Positions 1,810 through 11,498 of a stretch of DNA of 21,813 bases are shown in pieces. The notes beneath the pieces are model-generated. The model was not told the origin of the DNA. It made no database searches and saw only the letters and a list, made by a program, of their open reading frames with translations. The translations under genes and the position numbers were made by a program. The stretch covers positions 1 to 21,813 of the IMG/VR virus record IMGVR_UViG_3300029893_000076. The stretch is one strand, 5' to 3'. How positions within the stretch are numbered: position 1 is the first letter of the stretch; every line of letters begins with the position of its first letter. The stretch comes from a virus.

Positions 1810-2435
1810 ACTGGCTCGTCGTCGGCTCCTCGCCAAACGCGCCCGCAGCACTCAAACTCGCGCTCGCACTCCATCCCAACGCCAGCACCATCACCACCAA
1901 CGCCGGGTTCCAACTGTTCACCGAGCAACCGCCCGCCGTCTACTTCCTCGCCGACTACGTCGCCTGCAAACTGTGGGCGCAAACAGCCGCCGACCTACAG
2001 GCCAGAGGAACACGGTTCGTCGTGCCCGCGCGCGAACCGCTCGCACTCGTCGATCGCGGCATCACACACGCCGACGAATACATCGACGTCAACCGTACAC
2101 TCGACGCCGGACGACACCACCCGGGCCAGTACGCCGGGCACGCCCTCTCAGGACTCTACTGCCTCGACTACGCGGTCAACAACGGCGCAACCGCCGTCAC
2201 GCTCGCAGGATTCGACGGGTACGGCTCCAACCTCGAAACCCAGGTGCCCGACTACTTCGACGGCCGAGACGGACACCGAAACTCCGAGCGGCACAACCAG
2301 CGCACCGCCGGGTACCTCGAATCCCTGCTGCGGGAGACGGACGTCGAGGTCGTCAACATCGGCGAGCCGCGGTACACCGTTGCCGCGCACGCGAGATACC
2401 GCGTATTGTCAATAGGTCGGGGTTCCGACCGATGA
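1806..2435 (+). CDS. Rossmann-like DUF115/MptE-like protein of phage type
   Basis: The 209-residue product starts at a GTG that overlaps the upstream stop (GTGA), so the two genes are translationally coupled. It opens with a beta strand and turn (WLVVGSSPNAP), followed by TTNAGFQLF and a YFLADYVACKLW segment. Near residues ~115-140 it has SGLYCLDYAVNNGATAVTLAGFDGYG. That pattern, Ser-Gly then a helix then a hydrophobic strand ending in Gly-x-Asp, is typical of Rossmann-like proteins related to DUF115 or MptE-like enzymes and of some phage-encoded glycosyltransferase-like proteins. Substrate and reaction cannot be deduced. Its position after a fibre gene suggests a role with surface glycans or fibre modification, but this is inference. 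The family call rests on remembered motif shape, not on a search. Confidence 0.55.
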   Translation: MNWLVVGSSPNAPAALKLALALHPNASTITTNAGFQLFTEQPPAVYFLADYVACKLWAQTAADLQARGTRFVVPAREPLALVDRGITHADEYIDVNRTLDAGRHHPGQYAGHALSGLYCLDYAVNNGATAVTLAGFDGYGSNLETQVPDYFDGRDGHRNSERHNQRTAGYLESLLRETDVEVVNIGEPRYTVAAHARYRVLSIGRGSDR

Positions 2436-2785: not shown

Positions 2786-3397
2786 GTGCCGGACACGAGC
2801 GGGCAACCCGGGGGGGACTTGGGGGCGGTGGGAATGGACTACATCGCCGCGCCGCTCCGCGTGCTGGCCGTGCCGCTCGATTCGGTGGTGCTGGACCCGG
2901 CGAACGTTCGGCGGCACCCCGAGCGGAACCTTGAGGCGATCCGCGGGAGTCTGGCCCGGTTCGGGCAGCGTGCCCCGATCGTTGTGCAGCGGCAGGGGAT
3001 GGTGGTTCGGGCGGGGAATGGCCGGGTTGAGGCCGCGCGAACACTGGGGTGGACGCACATCGCGGCGGTGGTGGTGGACGAGGGTGACGTTGAGGCGACG
3101 GCGTTTGCGCTGGCGGACAATCGTTCGGCCGAGTTGGCTGCGTGGGACGAGGCGGCGTTGCATGAGTTGGTTGCGGGTATGGACGCGGACCTTCGTGCGG
3201 TTGCGGGCTGGAACGATGAGGAGTTGCGGGCGTTAGCGTCTGCGGCGAGTGCGGGCGATACAAAGGGCGATGCGTCACCACAACTCGGCGGGTCGGTGTT
3301 TCAGGTTGTCGTCGAATGCCCGGACGAAGAAACCCAGGCGGACTTGATCGGCCGTCTTGAAGAGGAGGGCTATAAGTGCCGCGCGTTGATGTTGTGA
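2786..3397 (+). CDS. ParB-like (ParB/sulfiredoxin-fold) protein
   Basis: The 203-residue product has an N-terminal ParB-like domain: LDPANVRRHPERNLEAI, LARFGQRAPIVV, then GNGRVEAARTLGW, the equivalent of the GxxR box of ParB-type nucleotide-binding domains. These are followed by FALADNRSAELAAWD. After a flexible linker, the C-terminus (VVVECPDEETQADLIGRLEEEGYKCRAL) forms a small alpha/beta unit that I associate with phage ParB-like proteins. No helix-turn-helix needed for parS binding is evident, so this is not a canonical segregation ParB. Known activities in the superfamily include CTP or ATP hydrolysis, nuclease and phosphoryl transfer. Start: GTG 2786 has GGGAG six bases upstream; ATG 2834 is the alternative. 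The 3' end overlaps the ABC-GNAT gene by 22 bases, so the two are co-expressed. Confidence 0.85.
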   Translation: MPDTSGQPGGDLGAVGMDYIAAPLRVLAVPLDSVVLDPANVRRHPERNLEAIRGSLARFGQRAPIVVQRQGMVVRAGNGRVEAARTLGWTHIAAVVVDEGDVEATAFALADNRSAELAAWDEAALHELVAGMDADLRAVAGWNDEELRALASAASAGDTKGDASPQLGGSVFQVVVECPDEETQADLIGRLEEEGYKCRALML

Positions 3398-4509
3398 GGG
3401 AATCGAAGGTCTCCGGCTCGCCCCGATGCCGCCAGTTGGAGGGGATGTTCGACGTGCCCCGGCAGGAGTTGTCGCGCGTCGCGTGGTCGCTCGACGTGCC
3501 GATCGACGAGAAGCCGTGGAAGGTTGGATTGATCGTTGGGCCGTCCGGCTCAGGAAAGAGCACGATCGCGCGTGAACTCTTCGGTTCATCCGTTGATCGA
3601 CCGTTGACGTGGGTCGGCGCTTCGGTCGTGGACGACTTCCCGGCATCGCTGTCGATGAAAGATGTGGCCGGCGTGTGTCAGGCCGTCGGCTTCAACACGA
3701 TCCCGAACTGGCTGAGGCCGTTCGACGTGCTCAGCAACGGCGAGCGGTTCCGTGTCGAGTTGGCGCGGCGGCTCGTCGAGTCTGACGGGCTTGTCGTGAT
3801 GGACGAGTTCACGTCCGTCGTGGACCGACAGGTGGCGAAGATCGGCGCGCACGCGGTCCAGAAGTACGTTCGTCGTCGAGAGGACTTGCGGTTCGTCGGC
3901 GTGACGTGCCACTACGACGTGGAGGAGTGGCTGCAACCCGATTGGACGCTCGACATGGCCACGGTCACGTTCGCCTGGAGGTCGGTTCAACGAAGACCAC
4001 CGATCGAATGCACGATCAGCCCGGTTCCCTACTCCGTGTGGCAAATGTTCGCTCCGTTCCACTATCTGACTCGCACGCTCCATCGCGCTGCACGGTGCTT
4101 CGCGTTGTTCGTGGGCGATCGGCCGGCGGCGTTCGCGGGGATGCTGCACCGGACGGCCAAGCGGCCGATCATGGGCTGCTCGCGTCTGGTGACGCTTCCT
4201 GACTACCAGGGGCTGGGCCTGGCCTTCGTGCTCATCGACGCCGTGGCGTCCGTGTATGGAGCGAAAGGCATCTCGGTCAATACCTACCCGGCGCACCCCG
4301 CATTGATCACCTGCTTCGACCGATCTGAGCGGTGGCGTCTTGTGAAGCGGCCGGGGATCGCAGCCCGTTCACAGTTCGCGGGCCGAGACCGCGGCCGATC
4401 CGACAGAGCCGCGCCGTTCAGGCCGAACGCGACGTTTGAGTACGCAGGCCCGTCGGCTTCGGTCGATGAGGCCGATCGGGTGCTGGCGTACTGGTCAGGA
4501 CGAAACTGA
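3376..4509 (+). CDS. ABC-type ATPase fused to a GNAT acetyltransferase domain
   Basis: This is a 377-residue two-domain protein. Residues ~25-205 are a soluble ABC-type ATPase: Walker A GPSGSGKST (55-63), degenerate signature LSNGE (119-123, normally LSGGQ), Walker B VVMDEF with D143 and E144, and H-loop His179. No membrane segment exists, so it is not a transporter. Residues ~215-340 resemble a GNAT fold: FVGDRPAAFAGM, then RLVTLPDYQGLGLA (269-283), matching the acetyl-CoA pyrophosphate loop QxxGxG/A. The GTG start is preceded by GAGGAGGG at ideal spacing and lies inside the end of the ParB gene. ABC ATPases fused to GNAT domains occur in phages and are suspected in nucleic-acid modification; phage Mu Mom, a GNAT relative, modifies adenine. 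The substrate here is unknown. The 3' end overlaps the opposing ASCH gene by 92 bases. Confidence 0.85.
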   Translation: MPRVDVVRESKVSGSPRCRQLEGMFDVPRQELSRVAWSLDVPIDEKPWKVGLIVGPSGSGKSTIARELFGSSVDRPLTWVGASVVDDFPASLSMKDVAGVCQAVGFNTIPNWLRPFDVLSNGERFRVELARRLVESDGLVVMDEFTSVVDRQVAKIGAHAVQKYVRRREDLRFVGVTCHYDVEEWLQPDWTLDMATVTFAWRSVQRRPPIECTISPVPYSVWQMFAPFHYLTRTLHRAARCFALFVGDRPAAFAGMLHRTAKRPIMGCSRLVTLPDYQGLGLAFVLIDAVASVYGAKGISVNTYPAHPALITCFDRSERWRLVKRPGIAARSQFAGRDRGRSDRAAPFRPNATFEYAGPSASVDEADRVLAYWSGRN

Positions 4510-4747
4510 TGCGCACCATATCGCCAGAGGTGGAGCACATGCTCAACACCAGGCCGTTGCGGTCGGCGTCAAGGGACGGCTCAACAGCCGTGACGCGAGC
4601 GAAGGCGAACGGCGGGCGCGGGCCGACCGAGAAGGCCACCTCGTCACCGACTCGTGGGAGGCGGTTGCTCCGCGGCCGCACCGTGTCCCACTTCTCCCCG
4701 CGCAGGATGGGATTGACGAACTCGCCCTTGAACCATAGGGTTTTCAC
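4418..4747 (-). CDS. ASCH-domain protein (PUA-like fold), only - strand gene of the window
   Basis: The 109-residue product begins MKTLWFKGEFVNPILRGEKWDTVRPRS. This carries the ASCH signature of Gly-x-Lys followed by a charged stretch and Arg (G17, K19, R24), then a GDEVAFSVGPRPP beta turn and FARVTAVEP, the usual strand order of the PUA-like ASCH barrel. ASCH domains bind RNA or modified nucleotides; some members hydrolyse N4-acetylcytidine. The start is GTG, with GGGAGAAG just upstream and a near-consensus promoter at 4794-4821. The first ~57 residues fit the family. The last ~45 are Pro/Arg-rich, do not resemble the usual ASCH C-terminal helix, and overlap the 3' end of the opposing ABC-GNAT gene. 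The domain may therefore be shortened. The domain call is good; function is unknown. Confidence 0.75.
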   Translation of the reverse strand: MKTLWFKGEFVNPILRGEKWDTVRPRSNRLPRVGDEVAFSVGPRPPFAFARVTAVEPSLDADRNGLVLSMCSTSGDMVRISFVLTSTPAPDRPHRPKPTGLRTQTSRSA

Positions 4748-4793: not shown

Positions 4794-4821
4794 ATTTTAG
4801 GGCCGGGGCGGGGGGCGTCAA
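4794..4821 (-). promoter_or_regulatory. Near-consensus sigma70-type promoter for the ASCH gene
   Basis: On the - strand TTGACG (4821-4816) and TAAAAT (4799-4794) are separated by 16 bases. Both hexamers match the bacterial consensus at five of six positions. This is an AT-rich island in extremely GC-rich sequence. The expected start near 4787 gives a leader of about 40 bases to the GTG. The 147-base gap 4748-4894 holds this promoter and the inverted repeat. No equally good + strand promoter for the terminase operon was seen in it. Confidence 0.65.
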
Positions 4822-4894: not shown

Positions 4895-5275
4895 ATGAGC
4901 GGCGAGAACGGCAGACTCAACGGGCACGCGAGTCTCAATGGGGCCGATCCCGTGGCCGCCGCGAAGGCCATCGAGGACATGACCGCATCGGGCTGGGGCG
5001 GCATGGCACGACGCCTGATCTTCGACACGATGAAGGCCGTGGAGGACGTGCCGGACGAGGTATGGCGCGCCCTTGTCGCGTCCTGTGTGCGCGACCTGAC
5101 GAGCGATCGTGTCGGGGCGCGTCGCTCTTCGCGCGACCACCTACTCAGGCTGCGAGCGATGGGAGTAGACGCCGCGGTCGCCCTCGACAAGATCGAACGG
5201 CTCGACAGCGGGGACGCGACCGAGAACAACGACGTGCGCGTGCTTGTCCACCGTGTCAAGCGACCCGAGGAATGA
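4895..5275 (+). CDS. Putative small terminase subunit or terminase-associated protein
   Basis: The 126-residue, mainly helical, soluble protein lies directly upstream of the large terminase and overlaps it by four bases (ATGA). A strong GAGAGGAG lies four bases before the ATG. The middle (MARRLIFDTMKAVEDVPDEVWRAL) and SSRDHLLRLRAMGVDAAVALDKIERL look like amphipathic helices, and the C-terminus is basic (HRVKRPEE). Small terminases are helical, DNA-binding and typically 100-200 residues long, and they usually sit here, so position and size support the call. No clear helix-turn-helix can be named from sequence alone. It is alternatively an orphan co-transcribed with the packaging genes. Confidence 0.5.
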   Translation: MSGENGRLNGHASLNGADPVAAAKAIEDMTASGWGGMARRLIFDTMKAVEDVPDEVWRALVASCVRDLTSDRVGARRSSRDHLLRLRAMGVDAAVALDKIERLDSGDATENNDVRVLVHRVKRPEE

Positions 5276-6525
5276 GGGACGTAGCCGTACATCTTCCTGA
5301 GTTGCACCCGGGCCAGGTCGCGGTTCGGCGCGGGGCCAAGCGGTTCAATGTGATGATGTGCGGGCGGCGGTGGGGCAAGACGACGCTGGGCATCGACCTT
5401 GTAACCGAGACGGCGATCGACGAGGGGATGCCCGCCGCGTGGCTTGCGCCGACGTACAAGTTTCAGGTGGATGCCTACCGCACGCTCACGCGGATGCTCG
5501 CCCCCATCATCACGAAGCAGAACGCTCAGGAGATGCGGATCGAGTTGTTGACCGGCGGCCTGATCGACTTCTGGACGATGGAATCTGGCGACCCCGGTCG
5601 TGGCCGCGCGTACCGCCGGGTGGTGTTCGATGAGGCCGGGCTGTCCCGCAACCTGATCGAATGCTGGGAAGAAGCCGTGAGGCCGACGCTGGTGGACCAT
5701 CGCGGCGACGCATGGTTTCTCGGCACGCCGAAGGGCCGCGGGCAGTTTCACCGGCTGTTCCTGCGGGGCCGCAACGGCGACGACGGGTGGGCGGCGTTCT
5801 CGGGGTCGATGGACGACAACCCGTACATCCCGAGGGCCGAGATTGCGGAGGCGAGGGCGAGCCTGCCGCCCGAGGTTGCGGCTCAGGAGTTGGACGGCAT
5901 CCCGGCCGAGAACGCGGGCAACCCGTTCGGGCTGGGCAACATCGCCCGCTGCATCGCCGATGGCCTGTCGCACCTGCCCCCGTTCGTGTGGGGCGTGGAC
6001 CTTGCCCGGTCGGTGGACTGGACGGTCGCCATCGCACTCGACGAACACGGGCGGGTCTGCCGATTCGAGCGGTGGCAGGGCGTCCCGTGGGCGGAGACTC
6101 GGCGGCGTCTGGTCGAGTTGATCGGAACCCGGCCCGCGTTGATTGACGCTACGGGCGTCGGCGACCCGATTGTTGAGGACGTGGCCGCGAAGTGCCCCCG
6201 TGTCGATCCGCTCGTGTTCACCGCCAGCAGCAAGCAGACGCTTATGGCCGGGCTGGTTGGCGCGGTGCAGTCGGTCGAGGTCAGGTTCCCCGAGGGTCCG
6301 ATCCGGGACGAGATGGAAGTGTTCGAGTACGATCAGCGCGGTGGGCGGTGGTACTATTCCGCGCCGGACGGGTACCACGACGATTGCGTTGTGGCCCTTG
6401 CGTTGGCAGTTCAGAAGCGGCGCGATCTTGCGTCCGGCTTCGCGGGCGTGTCGGTGGCGAGTTACGCGGGCGTGTCTGAGTCGGGCGGGGACGACGACGA
6501 TAGGGGCTGGACGCGATGGCACTGA
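5272..6525 (+). CDS. terL: Terminase large subunit (packaging ATPase and nuclease)
   Basis: The 417-residue product is the DNA-packaging motor and headful or cos nuclease. The N-terminal ATPase has Walker A GRRWGKTT at residues 31-38, an adenine-motif-like RRG/RFN lead-in, Walker B VVFDEAG near 117-123 and a coupling motif GTPKGRG near 153. The C-terminal RNase H-like nuclease has the first Asp in WGVDLARSVDW (~240), a second in LIDATGVGD (~290) and a terminal acidic pair in YHDDCVVALALA (~368). All main catalytic elements are present, so it looks functional. The ATG overlaps the upstream stop (ATGA), and the 3' end overlaps the portal start by ten bases, giving tight translational coupling. 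The length is at the short end of the large-terminase range. Confidence 0.95.
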   Translation: MRDVAVHLPELHPGQVAVRRGAKRFNVMMCGRRWGKTTLGIDLVTETAIDEGMPAAWLAPTYKFQVDAYRTLTRMLAPIITKQNAQEMRIELLTGGLIDFWTMESGDPGRGRAYRRVVFDEAGLSRNLIECWEEAVRPTLVDHRGDAWFLGTPKGRGQFHRLFLRGRNGDDGWAAFSGSMDDNPYIPRAEIAEARASLPPEVAAQELDGIPAENAGNPFGLGNIARCIADGLSHLPPFVWGVDLARSVDWTVAIALDEHGRVCRFERWQGVPWAETRRRLVELIGTRPALIDATGVGDPIVEDVAAKCPRVDPLVFTASSKQTLMAGLVGAVQSVEVRFPEGPIRDEMEVFEYDQRGGRWYYSAPDGYHDDCVVALALAVQKRRDLASGFAGVSVASYAGVSESGGDDDDRGWTRWH

Positions 6526-8690
6526 ACGGCATCATCAAGCGCGTGTTCGGCCGAGGCCCGGTCGTGACGGCAACTCCGGCGTGGGCGACCTACATCGACG
6601 CGGCGGTCCCGGACATCGAGGCGGTGCGCGCGCGGTGGAATGACGTAACCACGGCCCGCGAGATTGCCAAGCGCGCCCACGGCCCTGCGCTGGGCTGCGC
6701 GATCCTGAACGCGAAAACGTGCGCTTCGGTCCCGTTGCGGCTGTACCGCACGGGCGGCTCGTCCAACGGCAAGGCCCGGCGCGTGCGGGACGTGCGCAAG
6801 GCCGCCTATCTGCGCGACTTCAGGCGGGTCGGGCGCAAGGCCGCGATGTACGCCGATCAGGACGATGACATGGTGGAGGTGCTGGAACACGAGGTGTTGC
6901 AGGTGCTTCGTCGTCCGAACCCGCAGCGCACCGGGTCCGAGTACGAGACCGAGCGGTGGTTGCACAAGTGGTTGTTCGGCAACTCGGTCGAGTTGGTGTT
7001 GCGCAACGGCGGCGCGTTCCCGATCGGCATGGTGTCTTTGATGCCGCAGTACGTCCGCGTGCAGCCCGACACGGAGCGGTTCATTTCCGGGTACTGGTTC
7101 GGTCGTGAGGAAATCGACGTTGAGTTGTTCGACGCCGACGACGTGATGCACCGCCGTCTGTCGCCGCACTGGTTCAACCCGTACTGGGGCATGGGGCCGC
7201 TCGATATCGTGTTCCGCGAGTTGGACCTGTACGAGTTCAGTCTCGCGGCCGAGCAGGCGCGGTGGAAGAACGGCGGCTACCCGAGCGGCGTGCTGTCGAT
7301 GAAGAACGTCCGGGACCAGGAGCAACTGGACCAGATCACGCGGGGGATCGAGCGTCGCACCGCGGGCGTGGACAAGACCGGCAAGTTGCTGGTTACGACG
7401 GAATCGACGTACGCGCAACTCGGCAAGACGAACGAGATGGGGTATCTGCCGGGGATGGCGCATATCGAGCGCCGGGTGGAGCAGGAGTTCGGCGTGCCGG
7501 AGTCGATCCGCAGGCTGAACGATTCCAACCTGGCGAGCGCGTCCGAGGGCGTGAATACGTACCTGCGGTTCACGGTGCAACCCGCGTTGTCGATCGACGC
7601 CGAGCAGTTGACGGAGTTGTTGTTGCCGCGATTCGGGATCGAGCCGGGCGAGATGTGGTTCGCCTACGACGACGTGAACCCCGAAGATCACGAGTCGCTC
7701 AGGCAGGACACGGCGGTTCATGTTGCAGGCGGTGTGCTGACGTTCAACGAGCAGCGTGCGCGGCTGGGGTACGATCCGGTCGAGGGCGGGGACATTCCGC
7801 GTGTGAACGGTGTGCCGCTGGATCGCGTCGGCGAGGCGCAGCAGTTCGGGTTCGCGACGCCGGGTTCTGGCGAGCCTGACAGGCCAGACGAACCGGACGA
7901 ACCCGATGCCGAGCCGGATGACGAGGCGGAGGAGGACGACGCCGAGAAGTCGATCGGCACGAAGGTGGTGCCCGGCGACCTGACACAGCGGTTGCTGGAC
8001 GACCCCAGCGACACCGAGTTGATCGAGGAGTTGCGCCGCGACGTTGAGGAGTGGTTGCTGACCGCCCGCGACCGTATCCGCGTGAGCCCCGATGGAACGA
8101 TCGACTTCAATGGCGCGGAGGCCGATTTGGAGCGGGTGCTGTTCCCGAAACTTGAACGGCTGGTGCAGCGCGGGTTCGCGGTCGGCGCGGAGGACCTGCT
8201 CGCGTTCGGTGTGTCGCCCGGCGGCGTGAACGACGACATGGCGGCGGCTGTGGTGCGCCGTCGCGGATCGCTTCTGATCGAGCGGATACGCGGCACGACG
8301 CGGGACGACATCCGCGAGGCGTTGTTGGTCGGCTTTGAGGACGGCAGGCCGCTGAACGAGGTCATGGCCGAGGTTCGCGCGTCGATCGGCGAGACGGCCC
8401 GGAGCCGAGCCGAGACGATCGCACGGACGGAAATCAGCAACGCGGTCCACGAGGGTCGGTTCGAGCGGTGGCGTGCGTCGGGCGTGGCGAGGGTGCGGTG
8501 GGTGCTTGCGCCGGGCGCGTGCGAAATCTGCACGGCGTTGGTGGCGAGGTCCGGCGGCGAGGTCGAGTTGGGGCGGGCGTTCGTGGGAGCGGGCGAGCAG
8601 ATCGGGTCGTACACGCCGGTCATGCCGGTGCTGCACCCGCCTGCGCACCCGAACTGTCGGTGTACGGTGGTGCCCGTGTTTGGAGACTGA
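6516..8690 (+). CDS. Portal protein fused to a Mu gpF-like (MuF) minor head domain
   Basis: The 724-residue fusion has two parts. Residues 1 to ~445 form an HK97/SPP1-type portal: KTCASVPLRLYR near the N-terminus, the clip/stem region with FNPYWGMGPLDIV, and the later VPESIRRLNDSNLASASEGVNTYL helix typical of portals. A Pro/Asp/Glu-rich linker (~450-485) follows. The remaining ~235 residues are a MuF head-morphogenesis domain: ARTEISNAVHEGRFERW, then ACEIC near 667, and the terminal HPPAHPNCRCTVVP. These Cys/His pairs probably bind metal. Portals form the dodecameric DNA gateway at one capsid vertex, while MuF proteins are internal minor head proteins and are normally a separate gene. The ATG lies inside the terminase 3' end, and the protease gene begins three bases downstream of its stop. 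Confidence 0.92.
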   Translation: MALNGIIKRVFGRGPVVTATPAWATYIDAAVPDIEAVRARWNDVTTAREIAKRAHGPALGCAILNAKTCASVPLRLYRTGGSSNGKARRVRDVRKAAYLRDFRRVGRKAAMYADQDDDMVEVLEHEVLQVLRRPNPQRTGSEYETERWLHKWLFGNSVELVLRNGGAFPIGMVSLMPQYVRVQPDTERFISGYWFGREEIDVELFDADDVMHRRLSPHWFNPYWGMGPLDIVFRELDLYEFSLAAEQARWKNGGYPSGVLSMKNVRDQEQLDQITRGIERRTAGVDKTGKLLVTTESTYAQLGKTNEMGYLPGMAHIERRVEQEFGVPESIRRLNDSNLASASEGVNTYLRFTVQPALSIDAEQLTELLLPRFGIEPGEMWFAYDDVNPEDHESLRQDTAVHVAGGVLTFNEQRARLGYDPVEGGDIPRVNGVPLDRVGEAQQFGFATPGSGEPDRPDEPDEPDAEPDDEAEEDDAEKSIGTKVVPGDLTQRLLDDPSDTELIEELRRDVEEWLLTARDRIRVSPDGTIDFNGAEADLERVLFPKLERLVQRGFAVGAEDLLAFGVSPGGVNDDMAAAVVRRRGSLLIERIRGTTRDDIREALLVGFEDGRPLNEVMAEVRASIGETARSRAETIARTEISNAVHEGRFERWRASGVARVRWVLAPGACEICTALVARSGGEVELGRAFVGAGEQIGSYTPVMPVLHPPAHPNCRCTVVPVFGD

Positions 8691-8693
8691 ACC

Positions 8694-9380
8694 ATGAATG
8701 TCATCGAACGCATCCGAAAGCGGCACGGCATGGAGGATGGCGTCGAGGTCGGCGTGCGCAGTTCGTTCGGCGCGGACGCGGTGGTGGACACCGAGAGCGG
8801 CAACCGCGACCTGATCGTGGTGGCGACCACGGACGATGTGGACCTGGACGATGAGGTCGTGGTGCCGAGCGGCGCAGACACGACGTACTTCTTCGGCAAC
8901 AAGCGCATCTTCGTGGACCACGAATACACGGTGGACAAGTACGTCGCGGTGCTTCGCAAGGCGATGGCGTACCCGAGCGTGAACGACCATCGGGCGTGGA
9001 AGGTGCGGATGAGGGTCCGCCCGGGTCCGCTGGGCGACGACGTGCTGACGATCGCCCGCGAGTCCGGCATCGGTTCGTCGATCGGGTTCGAGCCGATCAG
9101 GAGCGGGCCGCCGACGGACGACGAGAAGGCGCAGTACGCCAAGGCTGGGCGGTCGCCACGGTCGGTCGTGCGGCAGTGGAGGTGGCTCGAACTGAGCCTG
9201 ACGGCCATGCCCTGCAACGTGATGTGCCAAGGGGGTATGGCGAGCGTGGACTCGACGCGGGCGGTCGCCCTCGACGAGATGGTGACGAAGGGCCTGATCC
9301 GGCGTGAGACGGCCCGCGCGTTCGGGCTGCCGGACGCCCCCAAGCGGGGCAGGATTGTGGTGGTGAGAAGCCATGCTTGA
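8694..9380 (+). CDS. HK97-type prohead maturation protease
   Basis: The 228-residue serine protease resembles the herpesvirus-assemblin-like S78/HK97 family. It cleaves the scaffold domain from capsid subunits during head maturation. Visible landmarks are the strand DLIVVATTDDVDLDDEVV, the catalytic His region FVDHEYTVDKY (~H74), the Ser region ESGIGSSIGFEP (~S127), and WRWLELSLTAMPCNVMC, equivalent to the family's conserved strand before the third catalytic residue. Residues ~195-228 form a charged tail (GLIRRETARAFGLPD). A GGAG lies eight bases before the ATG. The gene order portal-protease-capsid is canonical, although here a small ParB-like gene is inserted before the capsid gene and overlaps this stop. 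Confidence 0.9.
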   Translation: MNVIERIRKRHGMEDGVEVGVRSSFGADAVVDTESGNRDLIVVATTDDVDLDDEVVVPSGADTTYFFGNKRIFVDHEYTVDKYVAVLRKAMAYPSVNDHRAWKVRMRVRPGPLGDDVLTIARESGIGSSIGFEPIRSGPPTDDEKAQYAKAGRSPRSVVRQWRWLELSLTAMPCNVMCQGGMASVDSTRAVALDEMVTKGLIRRETARAFGLPDAPKRGRIVVVRSHA

Positions 9381-9807
9381 GTGCGGGTGCGAGGGGACGT
9401 GCGTGCTGGCGGAGCAGGTGGCGTGGTCGCACGATCGGGTGGCGGAGCATCTGGCGACGCCGGTTCCGTTCACGCTGGACGAAGCCGAGACGGACGGGCT
9501 GGAACTGGGCCTGAAGGCCCCGCATGTCTGGTGGCAGTGGAAGCCCTATGCCGTGCGGAGTGCGGAGCATCGGGCCGACTTTGACCGCCTGATCGTGTCG
9601 ATCTACCACGAGGGGGTCCGGGCCCCTCTGGTGGTGTGGGACAGGCACGTCCTGATCGGCCAGCGGAGGGCGGAGATTGCCCGGCGGCTGGGGATTCGTC
9701 GAGTGCCGGTCTTGGTGATCGGGGAGGACGTGCGGCGGTGGTGGCAGTACGACCTTGACCGGGTGAGGCGGCATATCACGCCGGAGGTCGGTCAGCACGC
9801 CTATTGA
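9373..9807 (+). CDS. Small ParB-like domain protein inside the head operon
   Basis: The 144-residue product begins within the protease stop (eight-base overlap). It starts with a short Cys-rich segment (CGCEGTC) and then DRLIVSIYHEGVRAPLVVWD, VLIGQRRAEIARRLG and RRVPVLVI. The GxRR box followed by an alpha helix and a VPV strand is the core of ParB/sulfiredoxin-like domains. No DNA-binding helix-turn-helix is visible. ParB-like proteins are not a standard part of HK97-type head operons, and this one sits between protease and capsid. It differs in length and sequence from the ParB-like protein at 2786-3397. The role is unknown; candidate ideas are nucleotide-dependent processing of DNA at packaging, or a moron-like insertion. 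Confidence 0.75.
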   Translation: MLECGCEGTCVLAEQVAWSHDRVAEHLATPVPFTLDEAETDGLELGLKAPHVWWQWKPYAVRSAEHRADFDRLIVSIYHEGVRAPLVVWDRHVLIGQRRAEIARRLGIRRVPVLVIGEDVRRWWQYDLDRVRRHITPEVGQHAY

Positions 9808-9833
9808 CTCGGCCCGTAGGGCCGGTGTATGGT
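9804..9833 (+). promoter_or_regulatory. Candidate capsid-gene promoter with palindrome in the spacer
   Basis: TTGACT (9804-9809) and TATGGT (9828-9833) are separated by 18 bases. The spacer holds a perfect inverted repeat, CGGCCC-gta-GGGCCG (9810-9824). The TGA of the preceding gene lies within the -35 hexamer. The gap 9808-9956 otherwise holds no gene. A palindrome between the promoter elements could be an operator, or a hairpin ending upstream transcripts. Confidence 0.4.
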
Positions 9834-9940
9834 TTGGTGGTCGGCCCGTTGGTCGGCTCGCGTCGGCAGACGCCCGCGGCGGTTCGCCGGTTCTCGGCCT
9901 GCCCGCTCCCCGCTGATGCCCTGTGCGGTGTACGCACCCG

Positions 9941-9946
9941 TACAAT
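9941..9946 (+). promoter_or_regulatory. TACAAT -10-like box just before the capsid start
   Basis: TACAAT matches the -10 consensus at five of six positions and lies ten bases before the ATG at 9957. No clear -35 is found at the usual distance, and the capsid start lacks a good Shine-Dalgarno sequence. Together these would fit a nearly leaderless capsid mRNA, but the evidence is only the motif and its spacing. Confidence 0.25.
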
Positions 9947-9956
9947 GGGCATCGCT

Positions 9957-11498
<1,542 letters not shown>

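Follow-up and report, generated by a model that had tools for sequence, protein, structure and literature searches.

A ParB-like protein and an ABC ATPase-GNAT fusion encoded beside phage terminase genes form a candidate DNA-base acyltransferase that exchanges with mom in transposable phages

The locus described here raises the question of what three unusual genes, placed immediately 5' of the terminase genes of a phage, do there. It lies in a virus record of 21,813 nt with 67% G+C (IMGVR_UViG_3300029893_000076), which was analyzed over its whole length and is called the window below. No near relative of the window was found among deposited phages. An earlier note on this DNA had described a ParB/sulfiredoxin-fold protein, an ABC ATPase-GNAT fusion and an ASCH protein lying together at 2786-4747 beside the terminase, and had suggested that the set makes or handles an unusual base in phage DNA. 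The open reading frames were found at these positions, which confirms the observation (Table 1), and the arrangement is far from chance. The first two genes do overlap, by 22 bp, with GAGGAGG ahead of the GTG of the ABC-GNAT gene. We consider it probable, at roughly 70%, that the cassette is an ATP-dependent acyltransferase of phage DNA bases that would protect the DNA from restriction. Other genes of the window include an ORF 5' of the cassette (1818-2435, plus strand) that weakly matches a family of phage sialyltransferase-like proteins (phrog_4603, 0.0045), and a plus-strand gene at 6516-8690 (PF04860 and PF04233) in which a portal protein and a MuF-like head protein are fused.

Table 1. 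Positions of the cassette genes, their signals and the adjoining terminase genes in the window.
Feature	Position	Strand	Description
ParB/Srx-domain protein	2786..3397	+	203 aa; N-terminal ParB domain and conserved C-terminal tail of ~35 aa
ABC-ATPase/GNAT fusion	3376..4509	+	377 aa; phrog_11143, motifs, model
ParB/ABC-GNAT overlap	3360..3397	+	GAGGAGG Shine-Dalgarno and GTG 3376 within the ParB tail codons
ASCH-type protein	4418..4747	-	109 aa, convergent; GGAG Shine-Dalgarno before GTG 4747
Putative sigma-70-like promoter 5' of the ASCH gene	4794..4821	-	TTGACG-16-TAAAAT, consensus match only
Gene in the terminase small subunit position	4895..5275	+	position; no family match of its own
Terminase large subunit	5272..6525	+	phrog_2, 2e-36

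The ABC-GNAT protein of the window matched phrog_11143 over its full length (3.5e-92). Its AlphaFold model (pLDDT 88.8) consists of an ABC domain (residues 1-206) and a GNAT domain (208-364). The Walker A, signature, Walker B and H-loop motifs are all complete, and the GNAT domain carries an acyl-CoA loop at 270-281 and an HYL motif at 229-231 that is invariant across 28 aligned relatives. Both the motifs and the two-domain model bear out the fusion as first described, with its Walker A, Walker B and acyl-CoA loop intact. Of 199 full-length relatives, 198 keep Walker A, all keep the signature and Walker B, and 180 have HYL/F. No membrane permease, the partner that marks an ABC transporter, was found; the neighboring genes encode the ParB, ASCH and terminase proteins, and a GNAT domain is fused instead. 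A role in host defence was considered and rejected, the sole notable PADLOC match being a generic ATPase stretch of mad3 (1e-11, residues 113-156). The fusion is not obligatory, as Streptococcus phages and some metagenomic ones (loci L035-L038, L043 and L049) encode the ABC and GNAT parts in two distinct ORFs.

Proteins of this kind have been considered before. According to Iyer et al. 2021 (PMC7824862), an acyl modification of DNA, as yet uncharacterised, had been predicted in 2013 for a GNAT that is linked with an ABC ATPase; phage pT24 is the carrier named there. Tenacibaculum phage pT24 was also recovered by tblastn as a relative of the window ABC-GNAT (32% identity over 76%, 6e-42). The window protein has the family (phrog_11143) and the architecture of the system predicted by Iyer et al. 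in 2013, with intact ABC motifs joined to a GNAT domain. Judged by its sequence, the window cassette belongs to a kind that is already known as a prediction.

The ParB gene of the window starts with a GTG preceded by GGGAG. Its product matched a ParB-like PHROG at 2e-31 and Pfam ParB_N at 1.5e-4, the latter under the Pfam cut-off. Of the two marks of a partition ParB, no HTH was found in the 203 residues by Pfam, PHROGs or NCBIfam, as the earlier note had said, and no ParA partner among the neighboring genes scanned. The domain type is shared with phage ParB-methyltransferase proteins (phrog_498, 3e-26; PADLOC MTase_II, 5e-13), whereas the window ParB has a gene of its own and a tail, and its effector is the ABC-GNAT protein, not a methyltransferase. 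In phage MenE, ParB is coupled to a Mom-like gene, and this ParB has no such tail. A second ParB-like ORF of 144 aa is present in the window at 9373-9807 on the plus strand (Pfam 0.0018; phrog_6218, 8e-6), between ORF 8694-9380 and ORF 9804-11498, which was taken for the capsid gene; the tail was not seen in its sequence.

The last ~35 residues of the cassette ParB are a conserved element. A profile of this tail matched 124 loci, most of them directly upstream of ABC-GNAT. Transposable phages without ParB have an ORF of 42-49 aa just 5' of ABC-GNAT that consists of the tail alone. The tail was not seen in P12024S, PX29 and pT24, which counts against the two-component acyltransferase proposed below. 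We infer that ABC-GNAT is probably docked through the tail, to which the ParB domain would be an addition. In P. gingivalis phages the stand-alone tail peptide (L134:6302-6430) bears the annotation of an anti-CRISPR candidate; where it lies and its sequence point to a partner of ABC-GNAT instead. At two loci, two or three ParB-like genes precede a single ABC-GNAT gene (L003:5774-7998 and L018:6704-7982).

Relatives of the fusion are numerous. By tblastn it was found in 75 phage records (Gordonia, Leptospira, Streptococcus, Lactococcus, Aeromonas and others). Relatives were also found at no fewer than 598 places in IMG/VR, and 386 in one-per-species genomes, with many Planctomycetes and Nonomuraea among the best matches. 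Gene order was surveyed in 210 loci, reduced to 102 non-redundant ones at <60% identity; this sample is biased, since conserved peptide patterns served to find the loci and no more than the 80 best of each scan entered it. ParB lies directly upstream of ABC-GNAT in 87 of the 99 non-redundant loci with enough upstream sequence. The overlap of the two genes is mostly exactly 22 or 4 bp, 22 bp being the commonest (35 non-redundant loci), and a Shine-Dalgarno-like motif precedes the ABC-GNAT start in 70 of 85 cases, so that the last ParB codons carry both ribosome-binding site and start. ParB followed by ABC-GNAT is an old and widespread pair. A convergent ASCH gene at the 3' end of the cassette was seen in 15 of 99 loci, the window counted. 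The co-occurrence expected for the trio was thus found for ParB and ABC-GNAT, far beyond close relatives, and only in a minority of loci for ASCH, which is not a fixed partner of the cassette. The large terminase gene follows within 4 kb in at least 45 of 82 non-redundant loci, a floor, as TerL was sought with six seeds. Streptococcus phage MismyG has the order of the window (ParB, ABC, GNAT, ASCH, small gene, TerL), but its ASCH gene is on the same strand as the others.

A link to DNA modification is provided by transposable phages. The P. gingivalis phages 011a and 014a have a common left flank of tail genes (6.2 kb, 90% identical) and a common stretch of 91 bp at the right end (81% identical). 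The slot between these flanks is occupied by mom in 014a and by the tail peptide, ABC-GNAT and a formyltransferase gene in 011a. In the Mu-like Pseudomonas phage Komp_PAO1_1, the cassette takes the place of mom behind a conserved gene for a Com protein (PF10122, 9e-21). The com-mom leader of JD024 and the com region of this phage have 70% DNA identity; B3 and others also have related com regions. The four whole records compared each contain Mom or ABC-GNAT, never both. Relatives were found at the locus behind com or at the right end of Mu-like phages in two lineages, at the right end in both and behind com in one; the window itself does not occupy this locus. Aeromonas phage PX29 carries both Mom and ABC-GNAT, which counts against the DNA acyltransferase reading. 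That cassette and mom are swapped in two transposable phage lineages that are unrelated speaks, short of proof, for a shared function. A change of function on exchange is conceivable for genes carried in the mom slot, and this counts against the reading.

Mom of phage Mu (phrog_1384; PDB 8bv8) is likewise a phage-borne GNAT with an HY motif, and in related transposable phages it lies at the same locus after com. In contrast to ABC-GNAT, it has no ATPase and no canonical acyl-CoA loop. The ABC-GNAT protein (P0002) gave no match to phrog_1384 at E 0.1, and a relation to Mom is thus undetectable by ordinary profile search. With hhalign, its HY aligned with the HY that is invariant among 11 Mom proteins at P 3e-4 to 1e-3, with a probability of only 17-42%. 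The ABC domain, used as a control, gave P 0.52 against Mom. The GNAT domain is closer to the generic GNAT RimI (2.5e-6) than to Mom, which counts against a Mom-like reading, and its acyl-CoA loop is like that of RimI (2.5e-6), a likeness that Mom does not share (0.33). The ABC-GNAT model also matched the structure of RimI (2cnm, Z 13.2). Mom was absent among the listed fold matches of this model, which is uninformative as the full-length protein was the query. We propose that ABC-GNAT works like Mom, without assigning it to the Mom family.

Some relatives are accompanied by genes of acyl chemistry, placed directly downstream of ABC-GNAT, overlapping it or a few bases off. An aspartate decarboxylase gene (PanD, 2e-33) lies directly 3' of ABC-GNAT in about nine loci, and a formyltransferase gene (6e-12, 2e-8) is found 3' of it in three lineages. 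On one phage contig, a CoA transferase alpha-type subunit (PF01144, 2e-34; L097:4708-5274) overlaps the ABC-GNAT end; this contig also encodes a terminase-like protein. The G-S processing site is kept in phage PanD encoded right after ABC-GNAT (L040:7107-7532, and L014, L103, L114, L122 and L232). The three would be in keeping with acyl-CoA or aminoacyl chemistry, in which PanD would supply beta-alanine, the formyltransferase would cap an exposed amine and the CoA transferase would make the acyl-CoA. Such genes are rare and none adjoins the window cassette, which counts against the DNA acyltransferase reading.

The reading as a DNA acyltransferase is favored because mom and the cassette are exchanged in two lineages, because in MenE a Mom-like gene, too, is coupled with ParB, which resembles methyltransferase-fused ParB domains, and because the active-site motifs of ABC and GNAT are kept, with HY aligning with Mom. 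The acyl-chemistry neighbors in some phages, the position before the terminase genes and the published prediction for ABC-GNAT speak for it as well. In the mechanism proposed here the activity, its substrate, the acyl group, the target base and the order of steps are all predicted. ParB with its tail and the ABC-GNAT protein would form a two-component enzyme that transfers an acyl group from acyl-CoA to the exocyclic amine of phage DNA bases. The ParB domain would bring or position the complex on DNA, and the tail would dock on the ABC-GNAT protein. On ATP binding, ABC dimers may close on the DNA and expose the target base, which the GNAT domain, with its canonical acyl-CoA loop and Mom-like HY, would acylate. 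In those phages that have a CoA transferase, aspartate decarboxylase or formyltransferase gene next to the cassette, its product would help to make or trim the acyl donor, or the acyl group itself. The product would do the job of Mom in blocking restriction and nucleases, and the placement of the genes beside the terminase would have the DNA modified before packaging. The unusual-base proposal of the earlier note is thus strengthened by the published prediction (PMC7824862) and by the mom exchange, and weakened in that ASCH is not a fixed partner.

The ASCH gene overlaps the end of ABC-GNAT by 92 bp on the opposite strand. Being convergent, it is not co-transcribed with ParB and ABC-GNAT. The protein had no Pfam hit, PF04266 included, and no PHROG hit; in the ASCH set aligned with it, 11 of 17 members match PF04266 at E 0.05. 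The best 16 PDB matches of its model were all ASCH or ASCH-like, at E 0.02 or weaker and with ASCH sequences in the model alignment. Residues K19, T22 and R24 correspond to K21, T24 and R26 of the N4-acetylcytidine amidohydrolase YqfB of E. coli, each of which is essential in that enzyme (PMC6972931). YqfB has the catalytic K-x-x-T-x-R motif, and probably the fold, in common with the window protein (TM 0.55/0.59 against 9kyf) at about 20% identity, and the region corresponding to the catalytic E74 of YqfB does not align. Codon-position GC in the non-overlapping part is 0.65/0.51/0.85, like that of the terminase gene. The gene as an overlap artefact was ruled out by this real-gene pattern and the recurrence of the arrangement. 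Motif, model matches, codon-position GC and recurrent arrangement are the grounds for its identity as ASCH. No close relatives of the window ASCH were found in IMG/VR, and there was one weak phage match. A conserved ASCH promoter was also considered and not retained; a good match was seen in only the window and L128 among 19 loci, which makes it a lead only.

Most likely, the window ASCH protein would be an amidohydrolase or a reader for the same acylated base, and a link of ASCH to the chemistry of the cassette is somewhat more likely than its absence. That it is an independent moron in a favored insertion spot, such as a gene for superinfection exclusion or for an RNase of the ZmASCH kind, seems a little less probable. 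Its opposite strand, its own promoter-like site in the window, its presence as divergent sequences in a minority of loci and the appearance of ZmASCH among the best fold matches would all fit a moron. However, 17 ASCH genes were found near the 3' end when 1.1 were expected from an even spread over the fetched flanks, and the K, T and R of YqfB are kept in the window copy.

Acylation of a host protein or tRNA instead of phage DNA, as in host takeover by the phage GNAT Rac on RNA polymerase or in the manner of TmcA, is unlikely. GNATs mostly modify proteins, TmcA is an ATPase-GNAT fusion working on tRNA, and the GNAT domain studied here is RimI-like. Phage GNATs acting on RNA polymerase are also known, as stated in a passage of Iyer et al. 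(PMC7824862). Against a protein or tRNA target stand the mom exchange, observed twice, the ParB partner that is common to DNA-modifying enzymes and the location by the terminase, not among early takeover genes. A role as packaging accessory is very improbable; in this reading, terminase would be loaded or positioned on concatemeric DNA by ParB together with an ABC clamp, and the GNAT domain would be regulatory. The cassette lies directly 5' of several unrelated terminase families and often close to TerL as counted above, but it is far from the terminase in EastWest, Komp_PAO1_1 and PX29, moves as cargo and keeps its HYL and acyl-CoA motifs.

Nothing closer was found in the literature on ParB, ABC and acetyltransferase together, and the main text of the P. 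gingivalis phage paper mentions neither acetyltransferase nor formyltransferase. As far as the literature could be searched, the mom exchange, the ParB tail peptide, the recurrent convergent ASCH gene and the acyl-chemistry neighbors are unreported. Returning to the DNA acyltransferase, a wider form of this reading is offered tentatively, at somewhat below even odds. The cassettes may be DNA-base acyltransferases of a modular family separate from Mom, built from a docking peptide (ParB-borne or free) and ABC-GNAT, with swappable genes that set the acyl group (CoA transferase, PanD for beta-alanine, formyltransferase for capping) and an ASCH amidohydrolase as reader or remover. They would then be a new hypermodification class exchangeable with momylation at one locus. 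If the DNA acyltransferase reading is true, base-modifying enzymes would be the products of a large family of phage genes that mostly carry the annotation ABC transporter, ATP-binding or hypothetical protein. The mom exchange makes the prediction of 2013 directly testable through related phages that differ at that slot. The finding would bear on the resistance of phages to restriction and may provide enzymes for DNA labelling.
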